The position numbers and the translations under genes were made by a program. A DNA stretch of 64,000 nt from Frondihabitans sp. PAMC 28766 (lineage in GTDB: Bacteria; Actinomycetota; Actinomycetes; Actinomycetales; Microbacteriaceae): positions 62,001-126,000 of the forward strand of contig NZ_CP014514.1 of the NCBI RefSeq assembly GCF_001577365.1, in the 5' to 3' direction. The stretch's first letter is position 1; each line of letters starts with the position of its first letter. Below are positions 27,188 through 60,720 of this stretch, piece after piece. The notes under the pieces were generated by a model. The model saw only the letters and a program-made list of their open reading frames with translations. It did no database searches and was not told where the DNA came from.

Positions 27188-27578
27188 CTATCGGCGCGAC
27201 CTCTAAGAACGTTTTTCGGTCCCCAACCCCGCACCTGCTCATTGTTGCGGCAAGTGCGTCTTGGTGCCGGCCGCACCCCGCACTAACGCGGAACGCCCCT
27301 CCATCCCGCCCGCACAAGTATCAGCGGCCGGCCACACCTGTTCCCGTTTCCCGGAGATGTTCGCTACGAGCATTGCTCGGCCAGGAGAAATAGCGTTACG
27401 GTCCAAAGACCGACATCACTGTTCCCGTCGGTCACGTCACGGCCTAGACCTCGCTGTGAGCGGCACCAGCCCTGGACCTGACCCTCTGGCCTGGCCGCCG
27501 ACACCGGTTCCCGGAGCACGATCAGCGGCCACGGGAACATTCTTCCCGGACGGTCAGGAACTCCTGGAAAGTTCCCTC
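27188..27578. other. Intergenic region upstream of SGNH-GAF gene
   Basis: There is no supported gene. The frame of the downstream gene is open through here, and a GTG at 27459 could extend that protein by 40 residues, but the added sequence is proline-rich and has no clear ribosome site. Confidence 0.4.
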
Positions 27579-28781
27579 ATGGCGGATAAATTCGTGCACC
27601 TCCTCGTCCGCCCACTCGTGGCCTGGTGGCTGATGGCCAGTGCTCACTCGTGGCGACGCGCGGTCGTCGCCGCGGATTCCCCCCACGTCCACGCCCCAGG
27701 AACCGACCCCGACCGGATCCTCATCACCGGCGACGGGGCGTCCACCGGTCGTGGGGTCCTCACCCACGACCTCGGCCTCCCCGGCTACCTCGCCCGCAAC
27801 CTCACCCTCCTCACCGGGAGGGCCACCGACGTCGACATCGTCGTCACCGCCGAGATGACCGCCGCCACCAGCCTCCTCGCGATCGCCGACCTGAACCTGT
27901 CCCGGTTCGACGCGATCCTTCTGAGCCTTGGCGCCAACGAAGCCCTCAACCTCACTCCCGTCGCCCGCTGGCGGCGCGACATCACCCGGCTCCTGGACCG
28001 GATCAAAGACGGCACCGGCGAAGAAACCGGCACCGTGGTCCTCTCCATCCCGTTCTTCGCCATCAACCCCCACTTCCCAAGGATCCTGGCGCGGGTCGTT
28101 GACCGACACGTGCAACAGTTGAACGCCGCCACCCAGGACCTCTTGACGTCACGGCCTCATGCGAGGTTCGTTCTCTTCACCCACGGCGACACGTACGAAC
28201 CAGACGGCGCCCACGCCTACGAACGGTGGGCAAAAAACATTGCCCCGAAGGTCGCGGAACTCCTCGACGCCCCCAGCATGCACGGCACACGAACCGAAGT
28301 ACCCGACGAGATCGGCCGACAACACGCCCTCACCCGACTCACACCCCTCACCCGGGACACCGATCACGCAATCACCGCACTGACCGAGACCGCGAAACGG
28401 GTATTCGGGACGTCCATCGCCGCCGTGACACTGATCGACACCGATACTCAACGGATGCCCGCCGCCACCGGCATGGAACCCGTCACCCTCCCGCGGGAAG
28501 AGTCCCTGTGCGACATGACGATCCGCCGCGCCACCCACTTCGTCATCGAAGACACCACCCTCGACTCCCGCTACGCCCACTACTCCGTCGTCACCGAAAG
28601 CCCAGGGGTCCGGTTTTATGCCGGCTATCCGATCGAATCCCCCGACGGGTACCGGATCGGAGCGCTCTGCATCATGGACACCAAGCCCCGCCACTTCACC
28701 CCGGACGACACCCAACTACTCCGGCAACTCGCCCAACAAGCCCAAACAATCCTCTGGAAGAGCCACACCCCGAGTCAGTAG
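27579..28781 (+). CDS. Fusion of SGNH-hydrolase-like domain and GAF domain
   Basis: A 400-residue protein. Residues 45-225 form an SGNH/GDSL-type fold: ILITGDGASTGRGVLTHDLG holds the nucleophile block in the variant form GDGAS, and ILLSLGANEALNL is block III with Gly and Asn. Residues 245-395 are a GAF domain (FGTSIAAVTLIDTDTQRMPA, LCDMTIRRATHFVIEDTTLD and GYRIGALCIMDTKPRHFTPDD), which binds small ligands. The N-terminus has no signal peptide, so it is probably cytoplasmic. A lipase-like fold joined to a sensory domain suggests a ligand-gated esterase or a sensor with no partner; no HTH or output domain is present. Confidence 0.8.
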   Translation: MADKFVHLLVRPLVAWWLMASAHSWRRAVVAADSPHVHAPGTDPDRILITGDGASTGRGVLTHDLGLPGYLARNLTLLTGRATDVDIVVTAEMTAATSLLAIADLNLSRFDAILLSLGANEALNLTPVARWRRDITRLLDRIKDGTGEETGTVVLSIPFFAINPHFPRILARVVDRHVQQLNAATQDLLTSRPHARFVLFTHGDTYEPDGAHAYERWAKNIAPKVAELLDAPSMHGTRTEVPDEIGRQHALTRLTPLTRDTDHAITALTETAKRVFGTSIAAVTLIDTDTQRMPAATGMEPVTLPREESLCDMTIRRATHFVIEDTTLDSRYAHYSVVTESPGVRFYAGYPIESPDGYRIGALCIMDTKPRHFTPDDTQLLRQLAQQAQTILWKSHTPSQ

Positions 28782-28804
28782 CGAGGATCAGACCCCAAAC
28801 GTGT

Positions 28805-28927
28805 CTAAAGTGTCGCGAGGTGGACTCCGATATGTTTCACGATCTGCTCGATCGTCACTCCGGGTTCGCCGTTCTTCGCGACGCGCACGACATCCTCACG
28901 GAAGTCAGCAGGGTAGGGCTCTGGCAC
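28805..28927 (-). pseudogene. Relic of IS3-family OrfA N-terminus
   Basis: Minus-strand reading from GTG 28927 gives EPYPADFREDVVRVAKNGEP and IEQIVKHIGVHLATL before a TAG, matching the first 40 residues of OrfA proteins of the EPYPKEFRDDVVRVARNREPG type. The remainder of that element is absent. It is unrelated to the two complete IS3 copies in this window. Confidence 0.78.
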
Positions 28928-29265
28928 GGGAACATCGTTCCAGGCTGCCCACCCGGGCAACCCAGATCAGATGTCACCCCACCGTGCAGCCGACCCGTCA
29001 CATCCACCACGATCCACATCGTCGCTGCCGCAATGCATGACCCCGTACGGGGGGTAGCGACAATTTCAGGTTCCCCTATTGTCAGAAGGGAACAGCCGCG
29101 CTCACGCACGGTGCCAGCCGAGACCTCGATTTGGGCGAGGTGGACACGCGTCGCTTGCGCCGCGTCGTTACTCTTTTGCCGCTCGAGTCTTCGAGCGATC
29201 ACACTCGCAGGGGCATTCCGGCAGTGGGCCGATTCCCCGAATCACGACGTCGGCAGGGGCCTTGC

Positions 29266-30552
29266 GTGTTCACTCGATCATTCTTTCGCCGGACGGTGCC
29301 CACCGCCGGAACAGCCATCGTCCTCGGTGTAATCCTCAGCGTCGCTGCTGCTGGGACGGCGCAGGCCGCCACCACCCTCGACGGGCCGATCGATCTCGGA
29401 ACAGCTGTACCATTCGGCGTTCTCGGTGCGAGCACTATCACCAACACTGGCCCCTCCGTCATCGCCGGCGATGTCGGAGTCTCACCCGGCACGTCGATCA
29501 CCGGCTTCCCACCGGCAACCCTCACCGGGACCGGGACCCTGCATCAGACCGACGCGGTCGCCACCGGGGCGCAAGCGGACACGACGACAGCTTTCAACGC
29601 CGCCGCCAGCCTGACCCCCACAACCTCCGGGCTCACCCAACTCAACGGTCTCTCCCTGACACCAGGCGTCTACTCCGGTGGGGCGCTCTCCCTCTCGAAC
29701 AACGGGGCGCTGACCCTGGCCGGAACGGCTGAATCGGTCTGGGTGTTCCAAGCCGCCAGCACCCTGAAAATCGGATCAGGCACCAGGATCACCCTGACCG
29801 GCGGCGCGTCCGCCTGCAACGTCTTCTGGGAGGTCGGAAGCTCAGCAACCCTCGGCAGCGCCGCCCAGTTCCAAGGCACCATCCTGGCCAAACAATCCAT
29901 CACTGCCACCACCCGTGCAACCGTCGTCGGCAGACTGCTGGCCAACAACGCAGCCGTGACCCTCGACACCAACACGATCACCACCCCGACAGGCTGCGCA
30001 CCCGTGAGTACCTCCGGGAGCGCCCCCGTCACCACGCCCAGCCCCGCGATCACCTCCGGCACACCGACGGCCGCGACCGTCGGAACCCCTTACCGCTTCA
30101 CGGTCACGTCCACCGGCACACCGACACCGACCTACACGGTCACCTCCGGCACCCTTCCGGCCGGCCTCACCCTGAACGCCACCACCGGCGAGATCACCGG
30201 CACCCCGACGACAGCAGGATCAACACCCGTCACCATCACCGCATCGAACGGTGCGCTCCCGTCCGTGTCCGCGATCTACACGGTCACTGTCCGCGCCGCA
30301 GCCGTGACCTCGCCCACACCCACACCGACACCGACACCACCGGCCTCCGCGACGGTGCCGACATCGACGACCTCCGTTCCCGGGAACTCCTCGAACGGGT
30401 CAACAGGCACGAGTGAACTCGCATTCACAGGCAGCAACCCGACCGGCCCGCTCATCGGCGCTACCGTGCTTCTCCTCGCAGGACTCGCCCTCCTCGGAAC
30501 CTCACATCGGAGGCGCCCCGCGCGGCCGCGGCGACACCGAATGGGTGTCTAA
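29266..30552 (+). CDS. DUF3494 ice-binding-like adhesin with LAFTG sortase signal
   Basis: A 428-residue secreted protein. Residues 1-35 are a signal peptide ending AGTAQAA. Residues 38-245 are a DUF3494 ice-binding beta-solenoid domain (FGVLGASTITNTGPSVIAGD near its start; SVWVFQAASTLKIG and NVFWEVGSSATLGSAAQFQG later). A putative Ig domain follows (TVGTPYRFTVTSTGTPTP), then a Pro/Thr-rich wall-spanning stretch, a class E-type sorting motif LAFTG, a membrane helix and a basic tail (RRRPARPRRHR). It is thus probably linked to peptidoglycan and exposed on the surface, where it may bind ice or glass-like surfaces. GTG at 29266 follows GGCAGGGG. Confidence 0.92.
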   Translation: MFTRSFFRRTVPTAGTAIVLGVILSVAAAGTAQAATTLDGPIDLGTAVPFGVLGASTITNTGPSVIAGDVGVSPGTSITGFPPATLTGTGTLHQTDAVATGAQADTTTAFNAAASLTPTTSGLTQLNGLSLTPGVYSGGALSLSNNGALTLAGTAESVWVFQAASTLKIGSGTRITLTGGASACNVFWEVGSSATLGSAAQFQGTILAKQSITATTRATVVGRLLANNAAVTLDTNTITTPTGCAPVSTSGSAPVTTPSPAITSGTPTAATVGTPYRFTVTSTGTPTPTYTVTSGTLPAGLTLNATTGEITGTPTTAGSTPVTITASNGALPSVSAIYTVTVRAAAVTSPTPTPTPTPPASATVPTSTTSVPGNSSNGSTGTSELAFTGSNPTGPLIGATVLLLAGLALLGTSHRRRPARPRRHRMGV

Positions 30553-30970
30553 AACCACGAAAGGCCGATGCCAGCAGACTCACAAACCCTGACACTCCGC
30601 ACCGCCATGCGGGCACAACCTGGAAGCGCCACCGCGACCCTCTCCCAACCCACCACGCACGCACTCACGCGGCAACTAGAAACACACAGTCACAAGACAC
30701 ACCGACCCACGCACCTAAATGAATTGGCTCTCCTGTACTTTCATAGAATAAGCCCAGCCAAGTCCTGTGGGTCCGAAACACCACTGACGGATCCGGCTAC
30801 CAAACAGCTCACCACCCACTGTTTTGTTCGCGCCCGGCACACCGGCCAGCTACACCGCAGCCTCCCACCATCAGAACCAGCCGGATAATTGCCGTCAGCG
30901 TGGAGTCGAAAGACCCTCAGCGACCGCCGCCGCCGCGGCAAGCCATGCCCGCCTCGTCCGGGGTGTGATT
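30553..30970. other. Intergenic region
   Basis: There are no supported genes between the ice-binding gene and the IS3 left end. Several open frames exist, but none has a domain, a good start or protein-like composition. The N-terminal part of the methyltransferase cut on the other side of the IS3 element is not found here. Confidence 0.4.
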
Positions 30971-31034
30971 TGCTGCGGAGTTTTCGGACGGTGGGCCCTC
31001 TTAAAATGTGGGCGCTACTGGAAGAGAGAGCAGC

Positions 31035-31304
31035 ATGTCCGCATCGCGTCGACGATTTACCCAGGAATTCAAGGACGAGTTGTGTCACGAGGTGATTTCC
31101 ACCTCGAAGCCGATCCGGGAAGTCGCCGAGGCCTACGGGGTCGGTCCCGAAACCCTCCGGAACTGGTTGGTGAAGTACCGAAACGCCCACGGCGGATCGG
31201 ACACGGAGCTCACGGTGACCGAACGAGCGCGTCTGAAAGAACTCGAGCGGGAGAACCAAGAGCTGCGGTCGGAGACCGCGTTTCTAAAAAAAGCCAGCGC
31301 TTGA
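31035..31304 (+). CDS. IS3-family transposase OrfA
   Basis: An 89-residue HTH protein: RRRFTQEFKDELCHEV and REVAEAYGVGPETLRNWLVK form the DNA-binding domain, and ERARLKELERENQELRSETA a leucine zipper. The gene ends in CTAAAAAAAGCC, a run of seven adenines typical of IS3 frameshift sites, but the -1 frame stops at a TAG overlapping the orfB start, so the classical fusion is not formed here. Confidence 0.92.
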   Translation: MSASRRRFTQEFKDELCHEVISTSKPIREVAEAYGVGPETLRNWLVKYRNAHGGSDTELTVTERARLKELERENQELRSETAFLKKASA

Positions 31305-31326
31305 CTATCGCCCGGGAGCAGCGGTA

Positions 31327-32214
31327 GTGAGCAAGTACGAATACATCGACTCCCAGAAGAACGACCCGTCCGTGGCGCACCCGGTGACGAGAATGTGCCG
31401 CTGGTTGCAGGTGTCGACCTCGGGCTTCTATCACTGGGCGTCCCGCCCACTGTCCGTGACCGCGGGCCGCCGCAAGGCCCTCACCCAACGGATCCGGCAC
31501 TTCTTCGACGCGTCCCACGGCACGTACGGGTATCGGCGTGTCCACGCCGACCTGACCGACGAGGGCACCTGGTGTTCCCCCGAGCTGGTGCGGAAGGTCA
31601 TGCGCCAGGAAGGCCTGGTGGCCTGCCAGCCGCGCCCATTCCGGGTCACGACCGACGGTGATGATGCCGCAACCCTGCCGGACCTGGTCAACCGGGATTT
31701 CACCGCGGATCGGCCCGGGGTGAAGTTCGTCGGCGACATCACCTACATCCACACCTGGCAGGGCTTCATGTACCTGGCAACCGTGATCGATTGCTACTCC
31801 AAGAAAGTCGTCGGCTGGTCGATCGCTGACCATATGCGCACCGAACTTGTCGCCGACGCCCTCCGAAACGCGGCTGCCACGACCAGGATCGACCCTGACG
31901 CGATCTGGCACTCGGACCGTGGCAGCGTTTACACCTCCGCCGAGTTCCGGGCCCTGGTGACCAGTCTCGGGATGCGTTCCTCGATGGGGAGAACGGGCGT
32001 GTGCTGGGATAACGCGATGGCCGAATCATTCTTCTCGGCGTTGAAGAACGAGCTCGTCTACCGCACCGTGTATGCGACGAAGGCGCAGGCCCGGCGGGAT
32101 GTCATCGCCTACATCGAGGGCTTCTACAACAGCCGCCGGCGCCACTCCGCCCTCGGCTACCGGCGGCCAAACGAAGTCCACTACAGTTACCAGCAGCCAG
32201 CCCTGGCAGCGTAG
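31327..32214 (+). CDS. IS3-family transposase OrfB
   Basis: A 295-residue transposase with an HTH_21 segment (HGTYGYRRVHADLTDEG) and an rve core. The DDE triad is visible as GVKFVGDITYIHTWQG, AIWHSDRGSVYTS and CWDNAMAESFFSALKNEL; it ends FYNSRRRHSALGYRRPNEV. The GTG start at 31327 overlaps a TAG that ends the -1 frame from orfA, so re-initiation is possible. All catalytic residues are present, and the gene looks functional. Confidence 0.94.
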   Translation: MSKYEYIDSQKNDPSVAHPVTRMCRWLQVSTSGFYHWASRPLSVTAGRRKALTQRIRHFFDASHGTYGYRRVHADLTDEGTWCSPELVRKVMRQEGLVACQPRPFRVTTDGDDAATLPDLVNRDFTADRPGVKFVGDITYIHTWQGFMYLATVIDCYSKKVVGWSIADHMRTELVADALRNAAATTRIDPDAIWHSDRGSVYTSAEFRALVTSLGMRSSMGRTGVCWDNAMAESFFSALKNELVYRTVYATKAQARRDVIAYIEGFYNSRRRHSALGYRRPNEVHYSYQQPALAA

Positions 32215-32251
32215 AAAACCACCAAATCCGCTGTCCGAAAACCCCGCAGCA

Positions 32252-32665
32252 GCTCAGGTCGACACGGAACCTGCTGCGATCGCGATCGCCCACAGCCGGA
32301 AATTACCGGCGATCCTGGCAGACGTGTTCAACCCACTCCCCCAAGAAGGCCATTGGGGAACGCTGCTCTTGCTTGATGGGAACATTGGCATCGGAGGAAA
32401 CCCCGAACAGCTCCTTCGCCGATCAAAAGACCTGATGGCGGTCGGAGGACACATTGTCGTGGAAACCCATCCCGATGCGGCCCGCGATGACGCTTTTCTC
32501 GCTCACACCAGCACGGTCGCCGGCCCGGTCGGACACCCATTCCGGTGGGCCGAATCTGGCCACATTGCACTCTCCCGATACGCCGCATTTGCCGGACTTC
32601 GAGTTACCGCAAGTTGGAGACATGATGGGCGCCACTTTTGCCGCCTCGGCCACAGCGTGCCTTAG
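32252..32665 (+). pseudogene. C-terminal half of a SAM-dependent methyltransferase, truncated by IS3
   Basis: The frame running out of the IS3 right end encodes VFNPLPQEGHWGTLLLLDGN followed by IGIGGNPEQLLRRSKDLMAVGG, the beta-4 and post-motif part of a class I methyltransferase, and ends HDGRHFCRLGHSVP. The SAM-binding glycine motif that should precede it is missing. The start is therefore lost; no matching front half is present in the window. Confidence 0.7.
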
Positions 32666-32745
32666 AACCTCAGGCTTTTCCTCTAGTACGACGACGAGGA
32701 AAGTTCTTTGGGGACGCTCCGCCCGAGGACCCGACGAAATAAGCC

Positions 32746-33414
32746 TTAGTCCTTCTCGCCCATCCACAAGTCGATGCTGCGGTGGTCGGGTTGGAACCCG
32801 TGCTGGGTTCCCCAAATGACGGCGTCGACCCGGTTTTCGGCTTCGATTTTCCCATACAGGGACCGGATGTGAGTTTTGACGGTGTTCACGCTGAGATGCG
32901 TGAGAGACGCGATTTCGATGTTCCGTTTGCCCTGCGTGATCAGTGCCAAGATCTCGGACTCCCGATCGGAGATCCCGATGGATCGGCCCGGCCACTCCAC
33001 AGCCGGAGCAGGGCGGATACGTTGCTGCGGTGCGCTGACCACCGTCTCCCCGTGCGCAATCCGCTCGAGCGCGTCAACCAGTTCCACCGCAGCCATACTT
33101 TTGGCCAGAAAACCGCGAGCCCCGGCAGCCAGGGCGGAGTCGATCAGGTCCTGATCCACCTTCCAGGTGTACAGGGCGATGTGGCGGTTCCTGGGGTTCC
33201 CAGCGAGTCTTCTGACCTCGGCCGCGTCGTCTTCCGGCTGCCCGAAGGTGTCGTACAAGGCCACATCCACGGGGACGGTGACCCTCGTCCGGGCATGAAT
33301 CTCCACCACCTCGATGCGGCTCCGGTACCGGCTCAACATCTGGGACAGGCCGGCGAGGACGACTTCATAGTCATTGATCAACGCCACCCGAACAGGACCC
33401 TCAGCTGGCGACAT
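32746..33414 (-). CDS. LuxR-family response regulator (atypical receiver), divergent from rhodopsin
   Basis: A 222-residue protein. The receiver domain (residues 7-120) keeps the phosphorylatable Asp in VDVALYDTFGQ, a Thr in IALYTWK and the Lys in GFLAKSM, but the acidic pair is Asn-Asp (INDYEVV), so phosphorylation may be weak or absent. The C-terminal LuxR HTH reads ISDRESEILALITQGKRNIE and LSVNTVKTHIRSLYGKIEAE. No kinase is adjacent. It starts at ATG 33414, 109 bases from the rhodopsin start on the opposite strand, so it is the best candidate to regulate that operon. Confidence 0.88.
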   Translation of the reverse strand: MSPAEGPVRVALINDYEVVLAGLSQMLSRYRSRIEVVEIHARTRVTVPVDVALYDTFGQPEDDAAEVRRLAGNPRNRHIALYTWKVDQDLIDSALAAGARGFLAKSMAAVELVDALERIAHGETVVSAPQQRIRPAPAVEWPGRSIGISDRESEILALITQGKRNIEIASLTHLSVNTVKTHIRSLYGKIEAENRVDAVIWGTQHGFQPDHRSIDLWMGEKD

Positions 33415-33523
33415 GCAGCCGAATTTATCACCCCCAGGGGTGACACACGCCACCCACCTGTTGCGGTTATCTGGGGGAGGTCGCGTTCCTGCGATGCCCG
33501 TTGACCGTTCTGGGAAGGACCTC

Positions 33524-34399
33524 ATGCTCGACAGTTACGCCCCGTGGCAAGTTCACCTCACCTTGGCCGAGCATTCGATCATCATCTACGTCCTCTCCGT
33601 CGCGGGTCTGGCGTTGTTTGCGTTCTTCGTCAAATCGTGGACATCCCGTAACGAGGTCACCTCCCGGTTCCGGGGCGGGATCTACGCGGGCATGGCGATC
33701 ACGGGGATCGCGTTTTTGTCTTATCTGCTTCTGGTGGTCGAGTTCGCGATCGGCTACCACCGTCGCGGGAACACCTGGGTTCCCGATTCGAACGCGATCC
33801 TGTCCTGGGCGCCGAGGTACTTCGACTGGACCGTCACCGTGCCGTTGCTGATCATCGAATTGCTCGCCGTCGCCACCCTCGCGGGTGCAGCGGCACGTCG
33901 TCTCCGCTTTATTGGTGTGGGGGCCGCGTTCCTGATGATCTCCACCGGCTACATCGGCGGGGTGGTCATTGACTCCGGAACGAACATGGGCGCCCTGTGG
34001 CTGTGGGGCATCATCTCCGGCATCTTCATGGTCATCCTGTACGTCCTCATCGTCTACGTCGTCGCGAAAGGGCGCCGGGACTTGGCCGGGACGGAAGCCG
34101 CCAGCACCCTCCGCAACGCCGGCATTTTGTTGGTTGTGACGTGGCTGGCGTACCCGGTGATCTTCGGGCTGCAAGGGTGGGGGCACGGGGGTGCAATCAT
34201 CACTTGGATGCAGGTGATCCTGTCGGTCGCGGACATCATCGCCAAGGTTGGCTTCGGGTCGATGATTCACAAGATCGCGAAGATCCGCTCCTCACAGGAC
34301 GTCACCCTCGGAATCGACACCCTCCCGGAATCCGTCTGGATCTCCTCCCAGAAACTCTCAGACGGTGTCCTGCCGCCTTACGCCGGCCCCCGGGCATGA
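33524..34399 (+). CDS. Microbial rhodopsin, predicted light-driven proton pump
   Basis: A 291-residue seven-helix protein. Helix C reads PRYFDWTVTVPLLIIEL: Arg98, Asp101 (Schiff-base counterion), Thr105 and Glu112 form a DTE motif at the spacing of bacteriorhodopsin Asp85/Thr89/Asp96, as in proton-pumping proteorhodopsins and xanthorhodopsins. Helix F has WLAYP (Trp207, Tyr210, Pro211), and helix G SVADIIAKVGFG has Asp237 and the retinal lysine Lys241. Leu109 at the tuning site suggests green absorption. Gly162 in WGIIS lines up with the tryptophan that in antenna-binding rhodopsins is replaced by glycine. ATG at 33524 follows GGAAGGA. Its stop overlaps the next gene's start. No retinal-forming oxygenase gene is in the window. 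Confidence 0.93.
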   Translation: MLDSYAPWQVHLTLAEHSIIIYVLSVAGLALFAFFVKSWTSRNEVTSRFRGGIYAGMAITGIAFLSYLLLVVEFAIGYHRRGNTWVPDSNAILSWAPRYFDWTVTVPLLIIELLAVATLAGAAARRLRFIGVGAAFLMISTGYIGGVVIDSGTNMGALWLWGIISGIFMVILYVLIVYVVAKGRRDLAGTEAASTLRNAGILLVVTWLAYPVIFGLQGWGHGGAIITWMQVILSVADIIAKVGFGSMIHKIAKIRSSQDVTLGIDTLPESVWISSQKLSDGVLPPYAGPRA

Positions 34400-35549
34400 C
34401 CGGCGTCGCTGGCCCGGAGCCCGCACCGTCATCCCCGGCCGTGGACTCGATACCACGCCCTTCGGGTTCCGGAGACGGGTTACGGGTTGCGGCCGCGTTC
34501 GCCGGGCGCCTTCTGGTGGTGGGAGCTGCGATCGCGGCCGCGCTCTGGGTCGCGACGCGGTTATCGAATGTCGTTATTCCCTTGATGATCGGGATTGTCG
34601 TGTCCGCTTTACTGGTCCCATTCAGTAACTGGCTGCAACGACACGGCTGGCCCAAATGGGTAGCCGTCATCGCCAGCTTGGTCGCTGTCCTCGCCGGTAT
34701 CGCGGTCCTGGTGTTTCTGGTGCTGTGGCGGGTGCAAGCGTCCCTGCCCCGCCTGCAACACCGCGCCGTAGCGGTGGTCGAGCAACTCCAACATTTCGCC
34801 AAGCACAGCACCCTGCAACTACCCACCCTGGACGTTGACACCGTTGGGTCCACGGTGCGCTCGTTCATCGAGGGCCACGCCGCACAGCTCGAAGCAGGAT
34901 TCGCCGTCGCCGGCGGTGGACTCGTCGACTTCGGTGAAGGTCTGTTCATTGTCATCTTTGTCACCATCTTCACCCTCACGGGTGGACGACGCATGTGGCA
35001 GTGGGTGGTCACCTTGTTCCCCAGGAAAGCTCAACCCCGGCTCAGCGTCGCGGGCGAGGCGGGCTGGCAAACCCTCACCCACTTCATACGCATCCAAATC
35101 GTCATCGCCGCAACCGACGCTGCCGGCATCGGCCTCGGTGCCTTCATCCTCGGTCTGCCTCTGGCGGCGCCCATCGGCGTCATCGTGTTCATTGGGGCGT
35201 TCATCCCCGTCGTCGGCGCGTTCGCTGCCGGAGCCCTCGCGGTCCTTATCGCTCTGCTGTTCAAGGGCTGGGTGGCGGCGCTCGTCATGCTTGGCATCGT
35301 CATCCTCGTCCAACAGCTCGAGGGGGGGTCCTTCACCCGTTCCTGACGGGATCGATCGTTGCCATCCACCCCCTCGGCATCCTCCTCGCCGTCATCGCCG
35401 GCACGACCCTTGCCGGTATCCCCGGCGGATTCTTCGCCGTCCCCCTCGTCTCCGTCGGCAACTCCATGATCCGAGCCGCCCGACAAGGCACCACCGACAT
35501 TCAACAAACACTTCCCCTGCCCGCAACAGCAGGGCCCGGCACCACATGA
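34396..35549 (+). pseudogene. AI-2E-family permease, frameshifted in a G-run, coupled to rhodopsin
   Basis: A membrane protein of 384 residues if one base is restored. It shows the AI-2E/PerM pattern: LSNVVIPLMIGIVVSALLVPF near the start, a long extracytoplasmic region, then GLPLAAPIGVIVFIGAFIPVVGAF and ILVQQLEG. In the G7 run at 35332-35338 the frame is lost; one added G continues it as VLHPFLTGSIVAIHPLGILL. The family includes autoinducer-2 exporters and Na+/H+ antiporter-like members. Its ATG overlaps the rhodopsin TGA, so the two are made together; a Na+(Li+)/H+ exchange role beside a proton pump is tempting but inferred. The break is probably a sequencing loss. Confidence 0.8.
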
Positions 35550-35887
35550 TGCCGCCAATCGGTTTCCCTCGTTGCCTCGTCCTGCGCCGACTCGGACCCT
35601 TCCCCACTCACCGCCCAACTGGCTGATGCTCCGGGGACATTGACGCTGGGGATTCTGGAGGAATAGTGTCACGCCAGGCTGCCCCCGACCTGCCAGCCAT
35701 CGTCCCTGCAAAGACGCCGTAGAAAAGGTTCAGAGAAAACCAGTGTGAAAGCCATGCCACCTCATCCCTTTCGAGGCAGGCCTCCTTTAAACCTCGGGCA
35801 TGTTTCATCAGCCCCTGTTTCCGACTGATTGGCGCAGCAGATGACCACCCACGCCCCCGACCCACCACCGCTTCGTCCACGCCCGGA
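35550..35887. other. Intergenic region upstream of ctaD
   Basis: No gene is supported here. An ATG at 35841 (reading TTHAPDPPPLRPRPEWQ) could be the true ctaD start, out of frame by one base with the ctaD body and in the same direction as the other single-base losses. Confidence 0.4.
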
Positions 35888-37589
35888 ATGGCAGACGGCC
35901 GGTTCGTCACGACCCGCGTCGGCCGCAAGGGCAACCGGATCGTTTCCTGGGCGACATCGACGGATCACAAAGTGATCGGGAACATGTACCTGATCACCTC
36001 ATTTAGCTACTTTCTGATCGCTGGGGTGCTGGCACTCATCATTCGGGCGCAACTATTCGAACCGGGCCTCTCGGTGGTGGCGACGAAAGAGCAGTACAAC
36101 CAGCTGTTCACGATGCACGGCACCATCATGCTGCTGCTGTTCGCCACCCCCTCTTTTCCGGGTTCGCCAATGCCCTGATGCCACTGCAGATCGGAGCACC
36201 CGACGTCGCGTTCCCAAGGCTGAACGCGTTCGCCTTCTGGTTGTACTTCTTCGGCGCGATCGTCGTCGTGAGTGGGTTCTTCTCCCCGTACGGGGCGGCG
36301 TCCTTCGGGTGGTTCGCCTACGCGCCCCTCTCCGACACCACCTTCACACCCGGCGTGGGCGGGGACCTGTGGGTATTCGGCCTCGCACTGACCGGATTTT
36401 CCACCATCCTCGGCGCGGTCAATTTCATCACCACCATCATCACCATGCGCGCCCCCGGAATGACAATGTTCCGCATGTCCCAGTTCACCTGGACGACCCT
36501 GGTGACCTCGATCCTTGTCATCATGGCATTCCCGGTCCTGGCCGCTGCCCTGTTCGGTCTCGGGTTCGACCGGGTGTTCGATGCGAACGTGTTCAACCCC
36601 GCCAACGGCGGGGCGATCCTCTGGCAGCATCTCTTCTGGTTCTTCGGACACCCCGAGGTGTACATCATCGCGTTGCCCTTTTTCGGCATCATCTCGGAGA
36701 CGATCCCGATCTTCTCCCGCAAACCGATCTTCGGATACAAGACCCTCGTCTACGCCACGATCGCGATTGCAGCCCTCTCCGTGACCGTGTGGGCGCACCA
36801 CATGTACGTCACCGGCTCCGTCCTCCTCCCATTCTTCTCGCTGATGACGATGCTCATCGCAGTCCCTACCGGGGTCAAATATTCAACTGGGTGGGGACCA
36901 TGTGGGCTGGGTCCATCACCTTCGAGACGCCGATGCTCTGGGCCATCGGCTTTCTGATCACCTTCACGTTCGGCGGGCTCACCGGCGTGATCCTCGCCTC
37001 GCCACCACTGGATTTCCACGTGTCCGATTCGTACTTCGTCGTGGCGCACTTCCACTACGTCGTCTTCGGCACCGTCGTCTTCGCGATGTTCGCCGGGTTC
37101 TACCTGTGGTGGCCCAAGTGGACGGGCCGGATGCTCAACGAGCGCCTCGGGAAAATGCACTTCTGGCTACTGTTCATCGGCTTCCACACCACCTTCCTCA
37201 TTCAGCACTGGCTCGGCGTCCTCGGTATGCCCCGCCGATACGCCACCTACCAGCCCTCCGACGGATTCACCTGGATGAACCAGCTCTCCACCACCGGCGC
37301 CATGCTGCTCGGCATCTCCATGCTCCCCTTCTTCTACAACGTCTACATCACCGCCCGCAACGCACCAAAAGTGGAAGTGAACGACCCGTGGGGGTACGGC
37401 CGATCCCTCGAGTGGGCAACCTCATGCCCGCCGCCGCGGCACAACTTCACCACCATCCCCCGGATCCGCTCCGAAAGCCCCGCCTTTGACCTCAACCACC
37501 CCGAGGCCGGCCGCCCCAAAGGGGTGGGGCCTCTGAAGGACTCCTCCGACGCTGACGTCGATGACCTCTCCGACGGAAAGACAAAATAA
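35888..37589 (+). pseudogene. ctaD: Cytochrome c oxidase subunit I (aa3 type), two single-base frameshifts
   Basis: The catalytic subunit of a type A haem-copper oxidase, about 567 residues once two bases are restored. The low-spin haem ligand is in [13 protein letters not shown]; the CuB region reads [15 protein letters not shown] with the His-Tyr crosslink pair and [10 protein letters not shown]; the last haem ligands are in [11 protein letters not shown]. Frame breaks fall at a C5 run (36147-36151, [14 protein letters not shown] expected) and at TT (36882-36883, [12 protein letters not shown] expected). It catalyses oxygen reduction coupled to proton pumping. Subunits II, III and IV are absent from the neighbourhood, so it would have to assemble with chromosomal partners. 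Confidence 0.9.
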
Positions 37590-37922
37590 ATGACTACTCG
37601 AGCCACCACCCTGGAAGTCGTCCGCGCCCCGTTGGGGCTCACTGAACTGCTCCTCCCCAACCAGGTCGCAGAGCATCTCCTCGGACATCCCGCCGACGCT
37701 CGGGAGCGGATCTTCATCCGAATCCTCGGAGCACGCCACCTCCTCCAAGCCGTCATCCTCCTGATGGCGAAGGATCGGATAGCGCACCGGATCGGAGCCG
37801 TGGTTGACGTCATCCACGCCGGCACGATGGTCGCCGTCGCCGCCACGGACCCCCGCCGAAAGACCTCCGCGACCGTCAACGCGGCCATCGCTGTGGTCTT
37901 CGCCGGCGGCGAGACACGGTGA
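37590..37922 (+). CDS. Conserved-looking hypothetical protein between ctaD and GH15
   Basis: A 110-residue mostly helical protein with a weak hydrophobic middle (GARHLLQAVILLMAKDRIAH) and end (TVNAAIAVVFAGG). It starts right after ctaD and its stop overlaps the GTG of the glucosidase gene (GTGA), so it belongs to the same unit. No family is recognised. Confidence 0.6.
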   Translation: MTTRATTLEVVRAPLGLTELLLPNQVAEHLLGHPADARERIFIRILGARHLLQAVILLMAKDRIAHRIGAVVDVIHAGTMVAVAATDPRRKTSATVNAAIAVVFAGGETR

Positions 37923-39672
37923 CCCTCCTCCACGACTACCCTCTATTCGTCCTCCGCGAGTACGCGTTCAGCGGTGACGGAGAACGCGGCATGCTCATCG
38001 GCCCCCGCGGGACATCTCCTGGCTTTGCGCGCCCCGCTGGGACTCCCCGGCCGTGTTCTCCCACCTGATCGGCGGCGGCGGAATCTACGCGGTCACCCCG
38101 ACCGCTGACGCATTTGTGTGGGGAGGCCACTACGAGGACGGGTCCCTTATCTGGCGGAACCGGTGGACGACACCCACCCAACGAATCGAATGCCGTGACG
38201 CCCTCGCCTACCCAGGCGACGCTGACAAAGTCGTCCTTCTTCGCCGGATCATCGCTGGGGACCAGGATGTCCAGGTGCATGTTGTCCTGAATCCGCGGCA
38301 CGGGTTCGGGAAGCACGCTTTCACCCGCGCGGCTCTCAAAGACGGCACGTGGACCGGGCGGACCGGCCCCTTGCATGTGCGGTGGAGTGGCGCCCCACAG
38401 GCCACCCGCAGTGATAACGGTTCTCTGACCGCCACGGTCACCGTCAAAGCCGGCCATCGCCTTGACCTTGTCCTGGAACTCTCCGAACAGCCCCTCGAAG
38501 ACCCGATCGACGCCGACGAGGCATGGCGGACAACTGAAGCATCCTGGTCGATGATTGTTCCGGACGTGACCGGGACCTTGGCGGATGAGGACGTCCGGCA
38601 CTCGTTGGCGGTCCTTCACGGACTGACGACACGGGGCGGCGGCATGGTCGCCGGGGCGACCATGTCGTTACCGGAACGGTTCGGGGAGAACCGTAACTAC
38701 GACTACCGGTACGCGTGGATCCGGGACCAGTGCTACGCCGGTCAGGCTGCCGCGTCCGTTGGCGACTTCGCCCTCCTCGACGACGCCGTCACCTTCGTCA
38801 CCGGACGGCTTCTCGCGGATGGCAAAGATCTGAAGCCCGCCTACACCACGGACGGCGGGCCTGTCCCGGATGAGGAGAAGTTAGGCCTGCCGGGATACCC
38901 GGGCGGCACCGACAAAATCGGCAACTGGGTAAACCAGCAATTCCAACTCGACGCGTTAGGCGAAGCCCTCCTTCTGCTCGCCTGCACAGCAGGCCACGAC
39001 CGACTCCCGCCGGACGGGTGGAAAGCCGTCGAGCTAGCAATTGAGGTCATCCGGGCCAAACAGGGCCAGCCGGAGGCCGGGATCTGGGAACTCGACGACC
39101 AGGTGTGGACCCACTCCCGGTTGTCGTGCGTTGCCGGGCTCCGCGCCATCGCCGACCACGCAGGCACAGGTCGCGGTGCGGACTGGAGTGCCCTGGCTGA
39201 CACCATCCTCGCCGACACCGCCCAGTCGGGCCTGCACCCGTCGGGCCGGTGGCAGCGGACCCCCACCGATGACCGAGTCGACTCCGCGCTGCTCATCCCC
39301 GCCGTCCGCGGGGCCCTTCCTGCTGATGACCCGCGAACCATCGCGACCCTTGACGCAGTGTTAGACGAGCTCGGCGGGACCGGGTTCATGTACCGGTTCC
39401 GGCAAAGTCCCGGGCCTCTCGGAGACAGCGAAGGAGCCTTCCTGCTGAGCGGATTCATGACCGCTCTTGCCCTGCATCAACAGGGGCGGCCGGTTGAGGC
39501 CGCACGATGGTTCGAACGGAACCGGGCCGCCAGAGGGACCCCCGGGGTGTTCTCCGAAGAATACGACGTCGCCCAACGACAAATGCGCGGCAACCTCCCC
39601 CAAGCGTTCGTCGACGCCCTCTTCATCGAAACCGCCTCCACCCTCACCCGAACCCCTGAGGAAACGACATGA
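37919..39672 (+). pseudogene. GH15 glucoamylase/trehalase-like hydrolase, one-base frameshift
   Basis: About 584 residues after repair. The N-terminal beta domain starts in one frame (PLFVLREYAFSGDGERGML) and continues in another after the GGG at 38009-38011, where GGGG would read RGDISWLCAPRWDSPAVFSHL. The (alpha/alpha)6 catalytic part has NRNYDYRYAWIRDQCYAGQA, GNWVNQQFQLDALGEALLLL and EAGIWELDDQVWTHSRL with the general-acid Glu region, and ends with FSEEYD holding the second catalytic Glu. It releases glucose from starch-type glucans or trehalose; no signal peptide is present, so the substrate is probably intracellular. It overlaps both neighbours (GTGA, ATGA). A second GH15 gene starts the far end of the window. 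Confidence 0.85.
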
Positions 39673-41123
39673 TGCACCAGCCGGATGTAGTCGTCGTCGG
39701 GTCAGGACCCAATGGTCTCGCGGCCGCCGTGACCATGGCGCGCGCTGGCCTCGCCGTGCAAGTCTTCGAAGCGAAACCGACCGCGGGAGGTGGGGCGAGA
39801 ACGAGCGAACTCACCCTGCCCGGGTTTCTGCACGACAACTGTTCGGCGGTGCATCCGATGGCGGTCGCGTCGGCGTTTTTCCGCCAGTTCCGGCTCGCCG
39901 AACGGATCCCCCTGGTCACCCCGGACATTTCCTACGCCCACCCCCTCGATCACCGGCAAGCAGGCATCGCTTACCGCGATTTGGAACGCACCGTCGACGG
40001 GCTCGGCCAGGACGGTGTTACCTGGCGGCGCCTGTTTGGCCCCCTGGTCGAGCATGCCGACCAAGTTGCCCGGTTAGCCGGGTCCTCACTGCTTCGGGCA
40101 CCTCGCCATCCGGGCACGGCCCTGCAATTCGCATGTCGCACTTTTCAGCAGGGCACGAGGCTCTGGAGCACCGGGTTCAAAGAGGATGTCGCGCCGGCGA
40201 TGCTGACCGGGGTGATGGCGCATGCGATCCTGCCGCTCCCCGCCCTTGCCGCGGCCGCTGCCGGGCTTTCACTTGGTACCTACGCCCATGCCCGCGGCTG
40301 GCCGGTCCCTGTGGGTGGTAGCCAGGCCATCACCCACGCGCTCATTGACGACCTCGAACAGCACGGTGGAGAGGTCATCACCGACCACCAGGTGGATGAC
40401 ATCGGCTCCCTGGATGGCGCCCGCGCGGTCGTGTTCGACGTGTCACCACGAGAGCTGCTTCGCATTAGCGGGCGCCGGTTCCCCGACCTGTACCGGAGGC
40501 GCCTGGAACGGTTCCGGTACGGCAGCGGAACCGCGAAAGTCGACTTCGCCCTCAACGTACCCGTGCCTTGGGCCGTCGCAGAACTCACAAAGGCCGGGAC
40601 GGTTCACGTCGGCGGCAGCCGCACCGATATCGCCCGCGCTGAACGGGAGGTCGCGCACGGACAACACGCAGCCGCACCCTACGTCCTCGCCGCGCAACCC
40701 ACCCCGTTGGATCCCAGCCGCACCCCCGCGGGCGGCCATGTCCTCTGGACATACGCGCACGTCCCCACCGGCTCCAACGTTGACCAGACTGAGACCATCA
40801 TCCGCCAGATCGAACGCTTCGCCCCCGGCTTCCGGGACACCATCCTCGCCACCCATCAGCGGACCGCCGCAGGCACCGAGCAGTACGACGCCAACTACGT
40901 CGGCGGTGACATCGCCGCAGGACGTGCGGGCCTTCATCAGCTCCTCGCCCGCCCTATCCTCTCCACAGACCCGTGGCGGGTCCCGGTCGACGGAATGTAT
41001 CTGTGTTCCTCGTCGACCCCGCCCGGTCCCGGCGTGCATGGGTTGGCCGGCTGGTACGCCGCACGTTCCGCCCTCCGGCACACTTTTGGGATCGCAACGA
41101 TGCCGTCACTCGCACCAGACTGA
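39669..41123 (+). CDS. Phytoene-desaturase-like FAD oxidoreductase (CrtI-related)
   Basis: A 484-residue flavoprotein. The N-terminal dinucleotide motif is DVVVVGSGPNGLAAAVTMARAG with VFEAKPTAGGGARTSEL, and the C-terminal FAD motif is YLCSSSTPPGPGVHGLAGW. This is the CrtI/RetSat-related group (COG1233), which includes carotenoid desaturases, retinol saturases and uncharacterised actinobacterial enzymes. It starts within the glucosidase stop (ATGA). A link with rhodopsin chromophore or carotenoid supply is possible but cannot be shown from sequence; the sugar genes around it argue for caution. Confidence 0.85.
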   Translation: MMHQPDVVVVGSGPNGLAAAVTMARAGLAVQVFEAKPTAGGGARTSELTLPGFLHDNCSAVHPMAVASAFFRQFRLAERIPLVTPDISYAHPLDHRQAGIAYRDLERTVDGLGQDGVTWRRLFGPLVEHADQVARLAGSSLLRAPRHPGTALQFACRTFQQGTRLWSTGFKEDVAPAMLTGVMAHAILPLPALAAAAAGLSLGTYAHARGWPVPVGGSQAITHALIDDLEQHGGEVITDHQVDDIGSLDGARAVVFDVSPRELLRISGRRFPDLYRRRLERFRYGSGTAKVDFALNVPVPWAVAELTKAGTVHVGGSRTDIARAEREVAHGQHAAAPYVLAAQPTPLDPSRTPAGGHVLWTYAHVPTGSNVDQTETIIRQIERFAPGFRDTILATHQRTAAGTEQYDANYVGGDIAAGRAGLHQLLARPILSTDPWRVPVDGMYLCSSSTPPGPGVHGLAGWYAARSALRHTFGIATMPSLAPD

Positions 41124-57732: not shown

Positions 57733-58749
57733 TCAGACCTTGAGGATGCGCTTGGCGGTTGTCGTGGGGACGGGAGTCGGGCCCGGGAACAGGACGAAGA
57801 AGTTCTGGTCGTATTCGTAGCGAAGCGCGGGGAACACGATTTTGATCTCGATGAGAGCCTTCAGGAACTGGATCTTGAAATCGCGTTCCCGCTTGGTCTG
57901 CGATCCGAACTGCACGTAGAGGTCCGACCACTTGATCCGGGTCGGCCGCTCGAGGGACCACAGCCGGTAGCCGAGCCAGATGTAAATGTCGATTCGGAGG
58001 GGCGCCGAACCAAGAACGCGAAGAGCATCCAGATCAACGGGGATGGGATGCGCCTTGATCGAGTCGTAGAACGGCGTCGAAAGCCTCACCTTCGAGGACC
58101 AGAGCCCCTCCATGGTCAGGTCCTCCCGCTCACTGAACCAAAGCTGTACCTCGTCGGCGATCTGGAAGTACTTCTGCGCGACTCCGTAGCCGGCACCCGC
58201 CTCGCCGAACGCGATGCCTTCGACTGACAGCTGCGAACCGAAAACGCGCTGCATCTGGTCGCGGAGGCGGGCGCGATTCTTCCCTCCCGCGGTGACCCCC
58301 AGCTTCTCCATGAACGCGTTCATGGAGGCACCCAGCTCGAGCTCCGGTGAATTCGTGCGGTAGGCCTCGGATGCCATCCACGTCATGATGTGGCGGGGCA
58401 GGATCCCGAACGGGTAGGCGTTGATGTCGCGTCCGTCTGGCGTCGACATGGCTGCGGGTCGCACGCGGAGCGTGATCGGTCCGTTGCGGCGGACCCAGAA
58501 GCTCTGATCGCCCGGGTCGTTGTAGGGCAGGGTCACTTGGGCCCAGACGCGCGCGGAGAAGCCCACGTTGTAGTCGATCTTCTCTGTCATCTCGCGGTTG
58601 CCGGCGAAGTTCAGCCGGTCCACCTTCCCCCGTGACATCTCGGGCATTGCCGACGACCCGACAGCGCCAAACCCGGCCGCCTCTATGGGAATGTCCTCGT
58701 ACCTGCTGGCCAGTTCGGTGCCGGGAGTACTGTCGTCGGTGTCGCTCAT
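57733..58749 (-). CDS. repA: Plasmid replication initiator, RepA_C family
   Basis: A 338-residue protein matching the plasmid RepA family: an N-terminal part with ILPRHIMTWMASEAYRTNSP and GGKNRARLRDQMQRVFGSQL, then the typical C-terminal block HPIPVDLDALRVLGSAPLRI, DIYIWLGYRLWSLERPTRIKW and FKIQFLKALIEIKIVFPALR, ending FVLFPGP. It should bind the neighbouring iterons and open the origin. ATG at 58749 is preceded by GGAGGGG and is chosen over an upstream start at 58776. It is transcribed towards the iterons. Confidence 0.9.
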   Translation of the reverse strand: MSDTDDSTPGTELASRYEDIPIEAAGFGAVGSSAMPEMSRGKVDRLNFAGNREMTEKIDYNVGFSARVWAQVTLPYNDPGDQSFWVRRNGPITLRVRPAAMSTPDGRDINAYPFGILPRHIMTWMASEAYRTNSPELELGASMNAFMEKLGVTAGGKNRARLRDQMQRVFGSQLSVEGIAFGEAGAGYGVAQKYFQIADEVQLWFSEREDLTMEGLWSSKVRLSTPFYDSIKAHPIPVDLDALRVLGSAPLRIDIYIWLGYRLWSLERPTRIKWSDLYVQFGSQTKRERDFKIQFLKALIEIKIVFPALRYEYDQNFFVLFPGPTPVPTTTAKRILKV

Positions 58750-58899
58750 CGGGGTTCCCCTCCGGGACGTCGTCACGGTTCACGCAACCGCTCCCCCGCG
58801 GTGCTTCGCGGGTCGTTGGCGTACAGCCAGAATGGCTCAGATCGCGCGAAATCCCGCGCAATCATGCGGCGTGTTCTAGCCTCTTCGCGCCCAACGATG

Positions 58900-59406
58900 C
58901 TACGAATGCGCGAGGCTTCCTTGGTCGCCTCGAGCGAGCCCTTTCCGGCCTCCGTCGAACCTTTTTCCGTTGTTGTATGTCTCCTCGAGACGGCGGGTTT
59001 CGTTGACGATCAGCTGCATTCCCAGCTCCCTGAGGGACGAGACGCCCTCGAAGGCGCGGGCAGCGCCGAACGCAGCTCGGAATGCGTCCCGATCCTCTCT
59101 GCGTAGGTCGAAGGTGAATTTGACCAGGTCGTCCGCCGCCTCTCCTGGAAGGAGTTCCGTGGCGGACCGTCGCTGGGGTGAAGGTGCACCCCGGCGTGCT
59201 GTCGGCACCGGCGGGACTTCGACAGCGGCTCTAGAGGGTTCGTCCGTGAGAAGCCCGGGGTCAGCGGTCAGTTGCTCTGCGGCGGGCGTGGTCGGCGCCG
59301 CCGTTCTATTCGATCGAAGAAGCGTGCTGGTCGCACCGGCGGCGGGGGAGGCCACGCGTCGCGGCGGAGGACCGCCTACGCTGCGGTTCACGGGTGTGTC
59401 AGACAT
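58900..59406 (-). CDS. Small protein after parA, candidate centromere-binding partner
   Basis: A 168-residue protein. The first 85 residues are disordered and rich in Pro, Ala and Ser; a folded C-terminal part reads DDLVKFTFDLRREDRDAFRA, followed by a helix with SSLRELGMQLIVNETRRLEE. The strand-helix-helix layout resembles a ribbon-helix-helix or related DNA-binding unit. It starts inside the end of parA (8-base overlap), the place of the parB partner in small partition operons. It is not a Spo0J-type ParB. The DNA target may be the repeat cluster upstream of parA. Confidence 0.65.
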   Translation of the reverse strand: MSDTPVNRSVGGPPPRRVASPAAGATSTLLRSNRTAAPTTPAAEQLTADPGLLTDEPSRAAVEVPPVPTARRGAPSPQRRSATELLPGEAADDLVKFTFDLRREDRDAFRAAFGAARAFEGVSSLRELGMQLIVNETRRLEETYNNGKRFDGGRKGLARGDQGSLAHS

Positions 59407-60352
59407 GAGCTTCCTCCGTCGCTGCTTCGGCTTCCTTGGCCATGAGTCGCGCGATCATCTCGCTTGTGACGGCTTGCAGGCTGTCCGCGACGGACTGGGC
59501 CGACTGAGGTCCGGGTGATTCGACGGCCTCGCCCTTCTTGAGGCGCTCGTACCATTTCGGGCTCTTCCGCACCTTGTCGTCGAGCTCATGCACTAGCAGT
59601 CCCTTGTCACGTGCGGAGGCGGCGGTGGCTTCCGCGTGCCGGACATAGTTTTCGAAGACGACGTCTCGTGCGGCCTCTCCCCCGAGGTCGGCGACGACCT
59701 TCGCTGCGAAATCTGCACGGACTCGACTCGCCGACGCTCCCGAGGCGAAGAGAACTACTCCGAGGAGATCCAGATCCGGGTTGAGGTCGATGACCTGGTC
59801 TAGCCGCTCGGCGGTGAGTTTCAGGCCCTTTCGCGAGGCGTCCTCCGTCTTCGCGGGGATGAGGATGTAGCGGGCTGCGGCGACAGCGGCGGACTGGATG
59901 ATGTCGTTCCCGGGCGGGCAGTCCAGGAGGATGACGTCGTATTCCCCCGCTATCCGGTCGAGGACACGCGCCAGGCTCAGTCGTGCTTGCTGCAGGGAAT
60001 CGCCGCCTCGGGTCGACTGACTGACGAGGGTCGCTGCGGCGTTCTCGATGAATCGTCCGCCGACGAGGACGTCGAGGTTCGGTCGAACGTTGCTGGCGGG
60101 GTGGGCGAGGTCGTCGGGGTAGGTGAGCGCTTTGGACAGCGCTTGGCCGTCGTCGTCGATGGCTGTGCCTGAATAGCCGAGGTCCAGTCCGAGGTTCCCC
60201 TGGTGGTCCAGGTCGACCACGAGTGTGCGCCAGCCGCTTGCGGCGAGCATTCCGCCGATATTGGCGGTGAGGGTGGTCTTCCCGACTCCCCCTTTGCCGT
60301 TGATGACCGCGATCACCCGCTGGAGGTTGATGCGTTCGAAGGGCTCAGCCAT
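59399..60352 (-). CDS. parA: ParA-type partition ATPase
   Basis: A 317-residue deviant-Walker ATPase: VIAVINGKGGVGKTTLTANI (Walker A with the signature lysine), LVVDLDHQGNLGLDLGY (A') and VILLDCPPGNDIIQSAAVAA (Walker B). It lacks an N-terminal HTH, as in type Ib or chromosomal-like ParA proteins. It drives plasmid segregation. ATG at 60352 follows GGAGAGAC; the open frame upstream passes through the repeat region and is not coding. It forms an operon with the small downstream partner. Confidence 0.93.
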   Translation of the reverse strand: MAEPFERINLQRVIAVINGKGGVGKTTLTANIGGMLAASGWRTLVVDLDHQGNLGLDLGYSGTAIDDDGQALSKALTYPDDLAHPASNVRPNLDVLVGGRFIENAAATLVSQSTRGGDSLQQARLSLARVLDRIAGEYDVILLDCPPGNDIIQSAAVAAARYILIPAKTEDASRKGLKLTAERLDQVIDLNPDLDLLGVVLFASGASASRVRADFAAKVVADLGGEAARDVVFENYVRHAEATAASARDKGLLVHELDDKVRKSPKWYERLKKGEAVESPGPQSAQSVADSLQAVTSEMIARLMAKEAEAATEEAHV

Positions 60353-60379
60353 GTGTCTCTCCAAGATCAGGTGTATTAC

Positions 60380-60720
60380 GCGTCCAAGGCTAACTGGGTA
60401 ATCCGGGCACCGTGGGTAACCCGGACAGTGCACCTTGGAACCAATTGATGCAAGGTGTCGCTATCCGGGACGTCCGGGTCACCTGAAAGTATAGGCAATG
60501 CAGGACTCCCCGGAGAAACCGGGAAACCTGGCAAACCCGGATAGCGAGAATATCCGGCTAACCAGGAAACCCGGGCAACCGGGATAGCGCCGACAACTGA
60601 GGCCAATTACTGTCCGGGACACCCAGAGATGCCAGACACCCCAGGTTCCCCGGCATTCCCGGACAGCGTGAAATCGCGCAGAATCGACGAATCAGATGTG
60701 CTAAACCATCCGGGTCGATC
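60380..60720. repeat. CCGGG/CCCGG repeat cluster, candidate partition centromere
   Basis: Upstream of parA about seventeen short words of the form CCGGG, CCCGG or CCGGA occur in both orientations, many inside longer units such as AACCCGGATAGCG, ATATCCGGCTAACC, GGGCAACCGGGATAGCG and CTGTCCGGGACACC. The flanks of the units are AT-richer and partly repeated (GATAGCG three times, GGTAACC-like words twice). Such a field of short repeats next to parA is typical of a centromere and parA operator. No ORF is supported here. Confidence 0.7.

Follow-up and report, generated by a model that had tools for sequence, protein, structure and literature searches.

What does a rhodopsin do on an actinobacterial plasmid when its gene runs directly into that of a permease, in a genome where no known retinal-making gene was found? 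The question is raised by a locus of Frondihabitans sp. PAMC 28766 (Microbacteriaceae), which lies in a window of 64,000 nucleotides (assembly GCF_001577365.1, contig NZ_CP014514.1, positions 62,001 to 126,000 of the forward strand); coordinates are those of the window unless a locus is named. The rhodopsin is related to the cryorhodopsins (CryoRs) but lacks the arginine that defines them. The locus is probably a worn copy of a phototrophy operon of the Curtobacterium type, with a rhodopsin that would pump protons outward, a dedicated LuxR-type regulator, and retinal genes that would have been lost. Its parts are as follows.

33524..34399, forward strand: rhodopsin of the Arg-less sister group of the cryorhodopsins, with an Asp-Thr-Glu (DTE) motif, Gly56 at the CryoR1 Arg57 position and a CryoR-like C-terminal tail (from reading frame, phmmer, tree and residue check).
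32746..33414, reverse strand: LuxR/NarL-type atypical response regulator of 222 amino acids (Asn14-Asp15, Asp55, Thr83, Lys105; GerE 1e-15; Response_reg 2.5e-4, under the family cut-off).
33428..33443, no strand: palindrome TCACCCCCAGGGGTGA, which probably serves as operator for both the LuxR gene and the divergent rhodopsin promoter, judged by conservation of its core.
34396..35346, forward strand: AI-2E family permease, first 316 codons up to the loss of frame (PF01594 8.5e-33, profile positions 6-274 of 327).
35340..35549, forward strand: C-terminal remainder of that AI-2E gene, read in a different frame (PF01594 profile positions 281-326, 8.8e-7, 28.8 bits against a cut-off of 34.3).

The rhodopsin gene is one open frame of 291 amino acids and matches Pfam Bac_rhodopsin at 2.8e-28. 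Every residue listed in a preliminary description of this DNA is found at the position given there: Arg98, Asp101, Thr105, Glu112, Gly162, Trp207, Tyr210, Pro211, Asp237 and Lys241. The DTE set of a proton pump is complete, with Asp101 as acceptor, Thr105, Glu112 as donor, and Asp237 and Lys241 in helix G.

Cryorhodopsins are probable UV sensors first described in 2025; a pentameric form and a UV-absorbing intermediate of very long life are among their traits. They are defined by an arginine at the position of bacteriorhodopsin T46 (Arg57 in CryoR1); a small gene, now DUF7882 (PF25355), whose product may be a transducer, lies beside the CryoR gene in every genome analysed by the authors (Lamm et al. 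2025, PMC12227055). In a phmmer search of PDB, CryoR1 (8r0k, 2.9e-69) and CryoR2 (8r0p, 4.2e-69) are the best matches of the Frondihabitans rhodopsin and the next protein follows at 2.2e-23. The match to both covers about 280 residues and includes the C-terminal tail, so that the extension typical of CryoRs is present. The defining arginine is not; Gly56 occupies its position. Where CryoR1 and CryoR2 have Glu and Ala/Ser, the protein has Asp101 and Thr105; its DTE set is shared by some other CryoRs (e.g. CryoR5) according to the same paper.

A rhodopsin search of 398 Microbacteriaceae genomes (E<=1e-30) gave 43 matches in 33 genomes. The 31 matches with a fetched locus were surveyed for Arg57 and for DUF7882, using a DUF7882 profile built from 9 sequences. 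Every one of the 17 Arg57 loci has DUF7882 within 1.5 kb (in 15 it lies in front of the rhodopsin on its strand, in two behind it on the opposite strand); none of the 14 Arg-less loci, which have Gly, Ser or Ala at the Arg57 position, does. The Arg-less state was confirmed residue by residue in 26 rows in total. Beside the Frondihabitans rhodopsin there is no DUF7882 match within 1.5 kb, and none on its replicon, contig C2, outside contig positions 60001-62000; the genome has two matches, one on contig C1 and the other not placed. The tail is partly kept in the Arg-less group, where 12 of the 14 loci retain the pattern Asp-x-x-Pro-Glu-x-x-Trp. In CryoRs this tail is said to bind the putative transducer; it is thus partly conserved in relatives without a DUF7882 neighbour.

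A tree of 51 rows (L014-L019 left out) supports the Arg57 group at 98/100, with the Frondihabitans row outside it. That row falls within an Arg-less clade of 24 rows (99/98), where it pairs with the row from genome G006 (100/98) inside a 14-row group (100/99); the other 12 members are of the Curtobacterium type. Two more Arg-less rows branch outside both the Arg57 group and the Arg-less clade (89/97). Such branching is a hint, though no proof, of a gain of Arg57. An earlier tree, which had one badly cut row (L098) and left out L016-L019, gave the Arg57 group just 48/22. Membership in the xanthorhodopsin/actinorhodopsin type is ruled out, as those six rows split off at 100/100. By arginine, tree and DUF7882, the protein as judged from its sequence is a sister-clade relative of the cryorhodopsins and not a cryorhodopsin. 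The rhodopsin is real and intact; its kinship with the cryorhodopsins, like the probable operator beside it, was out of sight when the preliminary description was made.

The DSE rhodopsins (Marin et al. 2023) are likewise Arg-less CryoR relatives with elongated termini, as reported in PMC12227055. The Frondihabitans protein has DTE instead; within the Arg-less clade, the rows of the tree set with a DSE motif (G331, G294, G201, G140b) branch off separately. In a public plasmid set there was no close relative of the rhodopsin, with two Polymorphobacter matches at 28.6%. For the G140 rhodopsin (L055:1417-2364), the alignment holds no further than residue 239 and shows Ser where the retinal Lys is expected.

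Some rhodopsins bind a carotenoid antenna, for which Gly156 and Tyr207 are the relevant residues in xanthorhodopsin (PMC12308411). Gly162 had been proposed as a sign of such an antenna. It does lie at the Gly156 position, but Gly is found there in 49 of the 51 rhodopsins in the tree set, with Ala in the other two. The Tyr207 position is Phe214; this is a weak test, as Phe also occurs in two of six xanthorhodopsin-like rows. Neither residue decides much, and a carotenoid-antenna rhodopsin is left unsupported.

The gene order of related loci was compared by tblastn. The queries were LuxR and rhodopsin from Frondihabitans, AI-2E from Curtobacterium MCBA15_001, and three G006 genes (crtY, blh and MarR); PF05834, PF15461 and PF01594 confirmed the identity of crtY, blh and AI-2E, respectively. 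Twelve Curtobacterium-type loci were available (one titled only Microbacteriaceae bacterium); one contig ends too early, leaving 11 to be counted. The usual order in these relatives is a divergent LuxR gene, then rhodopsin, crtY and blh. Both crtY and blh follow the rhodopsin in nine of the 11 loci and also in G140 and G006. AI-2E comes after blh in five of the 11, and the other six have no operon AI-2E. Two loci are exceptions: Leaf261 has neither crtY nor blh after the rhodopsin, while in Curtobacterium sp. MCBA15_009 (L107:10001-11350) crtY is gone and only the 3' part of blh is left, immediately downstream of the rhodopsin. The latter arrangement reads as a separate loss of crtY/blh.

Only in the Frondihabitans locus does the rhodopsin touch AI-2E, and there crtY and blh are missing. 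G006, which pairs with Frondihabitans in the tree, has a rhodopsin 90% identical to its own, on a contig with related RepA (53%) and ParA (65%) proteins, and has kept crtY and blh. Since these genes are present in the operons of relatives and kept in G006, their loss on the Frondihabitans plasmid is the simplest history; the contact between rhodopsin and AI-2E most likely results from this loss, and deletion would be the direction of change. A repeat search at the rhodopsin/AI-2E junction gave nothing helpful. Rhodopsin operons with retinal-making genes are known (Sabehi et al. 2005, cited in PMC7734400), and the rhodopsin-crtY-blh order of the relatives resembles them; the Frondihabitans copy differs in having neither crtY nor blh, and in the addition of a divergent LuxR gene and a conserved palindrome. 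A Na+/Ca2+ exchanger gene (L022:10947-12002, PF01699) lies downstream of the G002 rhodopsin; open reading frames resembling it are found near the rhodopsin in G362 and Curtobacterium sp. Leaf261, PF01699 being shown for G002 only.

The LuxR gene is divergent from the rhodopsin and lies 109 bases from its ATG. Its receiver reads Asn14-Asp15, at a position where two acidic residues are usual; distance, strand and residues all agree with what had been described. An orthologue occupies the same place in 12 further distinct loci. Asn-Asp is kept in all 13, and the probable phospho-Asp and Lys are kept in the 12 readable rows. No NCBIfam model names the regulator (P0003) as BldM.

Between the two genes is a palindrome, which reads TCACCCCYRGGGGTGA in the window and is 13 bases from the LuxR start codon and 80 from the rhodopsin start. 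In an alignment of the LuxR/rhodopsin gap from 13 loci, CACCCCYRGGGGTG is the single conserved block. The exact 14-base core is present between LuxR and rhodopsin in all 13 loci with that LuxR, upstream of rhodopsin in none of 13 Arg-less loci without it, and in none of the 17 Arg57 loci (1.5-kb flanks only). Elsewhere, one-mismatch copies are found in L022 and L097, in both cases over 5 kb behind the rhodopsin, and in L104 (1.7 kb in front). At greater distance, the C. ammoniigenes and M. testaceum loci, which have no palindrome, carry LuxR-type genes of other kinds (28-29% identity). If up to two mismatches are allowed, the window should hold 0.6 copies of the 16-base form by chance; the weight rests on exact conservation.

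The exact 15-base form is found in six of 14 genomes, Frondihabitans included, at one place each; a reversed control is found in none. Five of the six places are LuxR/rhodopsin gaps. The sixth is in G057 (L135), in a 3,015-base locus without a rhodopsin, where the palindrome ends at 1514 and the match of a LuxR homologue (51% identity, Asp-Asp in the receiver) begins at 1550. As this place was not chosen beforehand, it is an independent check on the link between regulator and site. A DedA-like open reading frame, named by eye, follows the LuxR homologue there (L135:1501-2212).

BldM and WhiI of Streptomyces also combine an atypical receiver with LuxR-type DNA binding, and the BldM site is a 16-bp palindrome, TCACcCgnncGgGTGA (Al-Bassam et al. 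2014, PMC4125116). In each half-site, the Frondihabitans palindrome agrees with it in the six outer bases; the consensus g and c flanking the centre are C and G here. In contrast to the BldM/WhiI regulon, the exact site here occurs at one place in each of the six genomes, of 14, that have any. Its position next to the LuxR start suggests that it is the operator of an autoregulated LuxR gene; binding of the LuxR protein to it would be expected, and it may also control the rhodopsin. The palindrome between LuxR and rhodopsin is a new observation. No description of the Arg-less clade, the operon or the palindrome was found in the open-licence literature, where the palindrome was not searched as text and from which subscription papers are mostly absent; the main texts of PMC12227055 and PMC9601134 nowhere mention "Curtobacterium".

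Retinal is the other requirement of the rhodopsin. The Frondihabitans genome has no Brp/Blh match (PF15461) at E<=1, no RPE65-type match (PF03055) at E<=0.001 and no match to the operon crtY; a phytoene-synthase-type gene is present. Among 21 genomes tested, nine of the 17 with a cryorhodopsin-group gene have neither PF15461 nor PF03055 (one, G331, is 84% complete). The preliminary description had held that a host without retinal-synthesis genes would speak against its reading. None of the known genes was found, but this is not fatal. Aurantimicrobium minutum, another family member without known retinal genes, is nevertheless reported to produce retinal and a rhodopsin that works (Nakajima et al. 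2020, PMC7734400); missing genes therefore do not prove a dead protein. The A. minutum pump is xanthorhodopsin-like and thus of another rhodopsin group, and its function was shown, whereas the Frondihabitans protein is known from sequence only.

The replicon, contig C2, has 212,902 bp and belongs to a four-contig genome of 4.77 Mb with a completeness of 100. It carries a RepA_C protein and a ParA-type ATPase, which support its identity as a plasmid and bear out the plasmid-borne location given in the preliminary description. The following features of the window concern the replicon and the surroundings of the locus.

57733..58776, reverse strand: plasmid RepA (RepA_C 6.9e-21).
59399..60433, reverse strand: ParA-type ATPase (AAA_31 1e-30).
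31008..32214, forward strand: IS3-type transposase genes upstream of the locus (31327-32214 by rve and HTH_21; 31008-31304 by position and sequence only).
35888..37589, forward strand: COX1 copy broken over three frames, a sign of decay beside the locus; an intact counterpart is on contig C1.

The sequence of events at this locus can be pictured as follows. The ancestral operon would have held rhodopsin, crtY (lycopene cyclase), blh (which makes retinal from beta-carotene) and, in some genomes, AI-2E; crtY and blh would then have been lost on the plasmid, so that AI-2E came to abut the rhodopsin. The divergent BldM-like atypical LuxR would bind the palindrome at 33428-33443 and control both itself and the rhodopsin. 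Without an arginine at the T46 position, the proton donor Glu112 would be free, which may permit faster reprotonation and outward pumping; in CryoR1 the R57T exchange is reported to speed up decay of the blue-shifted state about 100-fold at pH 8. The missing arginine, the lack of an adjoining transducer gene and the retinal genes in the relatives' operon together make it most likely that the rhodopsin pumps protons outward in the light. Retinal may come from outside or from an enzyme other than those known, and the tail, being common to this protein and the CryoRs, hints at a protein partner.

The preliminary description remarked on the unfamiliar pairing of rhodopsin and permease and thought a light-driven pump with a coupled exchanger conceivable. 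The rhodopsin stop (TGA, 34397-34399) does overlap the AI-2E start (ATG at 34396) in an ATGA, as had been described. An operon AI-2E exists in five Curtobacterium-type loci, and the Frondihabitans permease is clearly kin to such a copy, being closest to that of Curtobacterium in G297 (62%, 388 bits; next 278 bits; 13 genomes). A working pair of pump and exchanger is nevertheless very improbable. The operon AI-2E is missing in the remaining six loci, and crtY and blh lie between it and the rhodopsin wherever it is present; the two genes touch only here, and AI-2E as a conserved partner is rejected. Nor is the permease one frame up to 35549: the frame from 34396 stops at 35346, and the remainder, which the preliminary description had joined to it without comment, is read from 35340 in another frame; the break, judged by eye, lies in a run of G. 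The Na+/H+ antiporter group of AI-2E proteins (UPF0118) has signature motifs C and D (Wang et al. 2020, PMC7221264); set by eye against the strings printed there, the Frondihabitans permease has Ala for the Asp of motif C and Gln-Gln for the two Arg of motif D, which disagrees with the proposed Na+/H+ coupling. No open-licence paper was matched that pairs a rhodopsin with AI-2E.

Two further explanations concern the rhodopsin itself. It might sense light as the cryorhodopsins do and pass the signal via its tail to a DUF7882 protein whose gene lies elsewhere; the retention of the tail pattern in most Arg-less loci, the two DUF7882 matches in the genome and the occurrence of DTE in Arg57 CryoRs are in keeping with this. 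A sensor is unlikely, given that the arginine is missing, that no DUF7882 match was found on C2 outside contig positions 60001-62000, and that DUF7882 is far wider (261 of 398 family genomes) than such a rhodopsin (33 of 398). Moreover, the operon of relatives still includes genes for making retinal, as is usual for pumps. It is also rather unlikely that decay affects the entire locus and that the rhodopsin gene is a remnant silenced not long ago. The loss of crtY/blh, the broken AI-2E and COX1 genes, the IS3 transposase upstream and the lack of known retinal genes would fit such decay, but rhodopsin, LuxR and operator are all intact. The ratio of non-synonymous to synonymous substitution (dN/dS) between the Frondihabitans and G006 rhodopsins is 0.089. 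With four outgroups, amino-acid changes unique to Frondihabitans and to G006 number 11 and 9, 13 and 9, 8 and 11, and 5 and 8. The rhodopsin is under purifying constraint, with no excess of change on its own branch and no sign of relaxation, although a recent onset of decay would hide such a signal.

An outward pump under its own regulator remains the probable explanation, and several observations weigh against it. The DTE motif, which led the preliminary description to a proton pump and keeps that function plausible, is not specific: it is also present in 11 of the 17 Arg57 loci. The sister CryoRs are slow sensors, and CryoR1 shows inward transport, so that the motif by itself is no argument for pumping. 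No tested member of the Arg-less clade was found in the literature covered. G006 has retained its rhodopsin without the LuxR gene, the palindrome or an operon AI-2E. With a synonymous divergence (dS) of 0.89, dN/dS averages over a long history and would miss a recent loss; for the broken COX1 piece the value is similar (0.100). Of the three frame breaks in AI-2E and COX1, two are in base runs; real decay and sequencing error are both possible causes.

The Arg-less clade is a natural contrast to the cryorhodopsins, with the same kin and tail, no arginine or adjoining transducer gene, and often retinal-making genes. This makes it testable whether arginine and transducer turned a pump into a sensor. 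It is a tentative possibility, more doubtful than not, that the Arg-less clade represents the older pumping state, that cryorhodopsin sensors arose once by gaining Arg57 and DUF7882, that the tail predates the transducer, that the BldM-like regulator is a one-site switch for rhodopsin, and that the plasmid rhodopsin uses retinal which the host makes by no known gene. Through the conserved palindrome, regulator and operator become a candidate pair serving a bacterial rhodopsin. The missing blh is one more case in which the retinal supply of such a host is in question.

Some minor features of the surroundings can be added. The DNA of the plasmid COX1 copy (35888-37589) is about 84-85% identical to an intact copy on the related G006 contig. 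In a megablast of 26000-46000 against plasmids, the 20 matches listed, out of 108, all fall in the COX1 stretch. At 39669-41123 there is an FAD oxidoreductase weakly similar to the carotenoid ketolase CrtO and to phytoene desaturases, far under the NCBIfam cut-offs. Finally, an ice-binding-like protein (29131-30552; PF11999, 1.2e-53) with a putative Ig domain is encoded near the rhodopsin, which suits a cold habitat.

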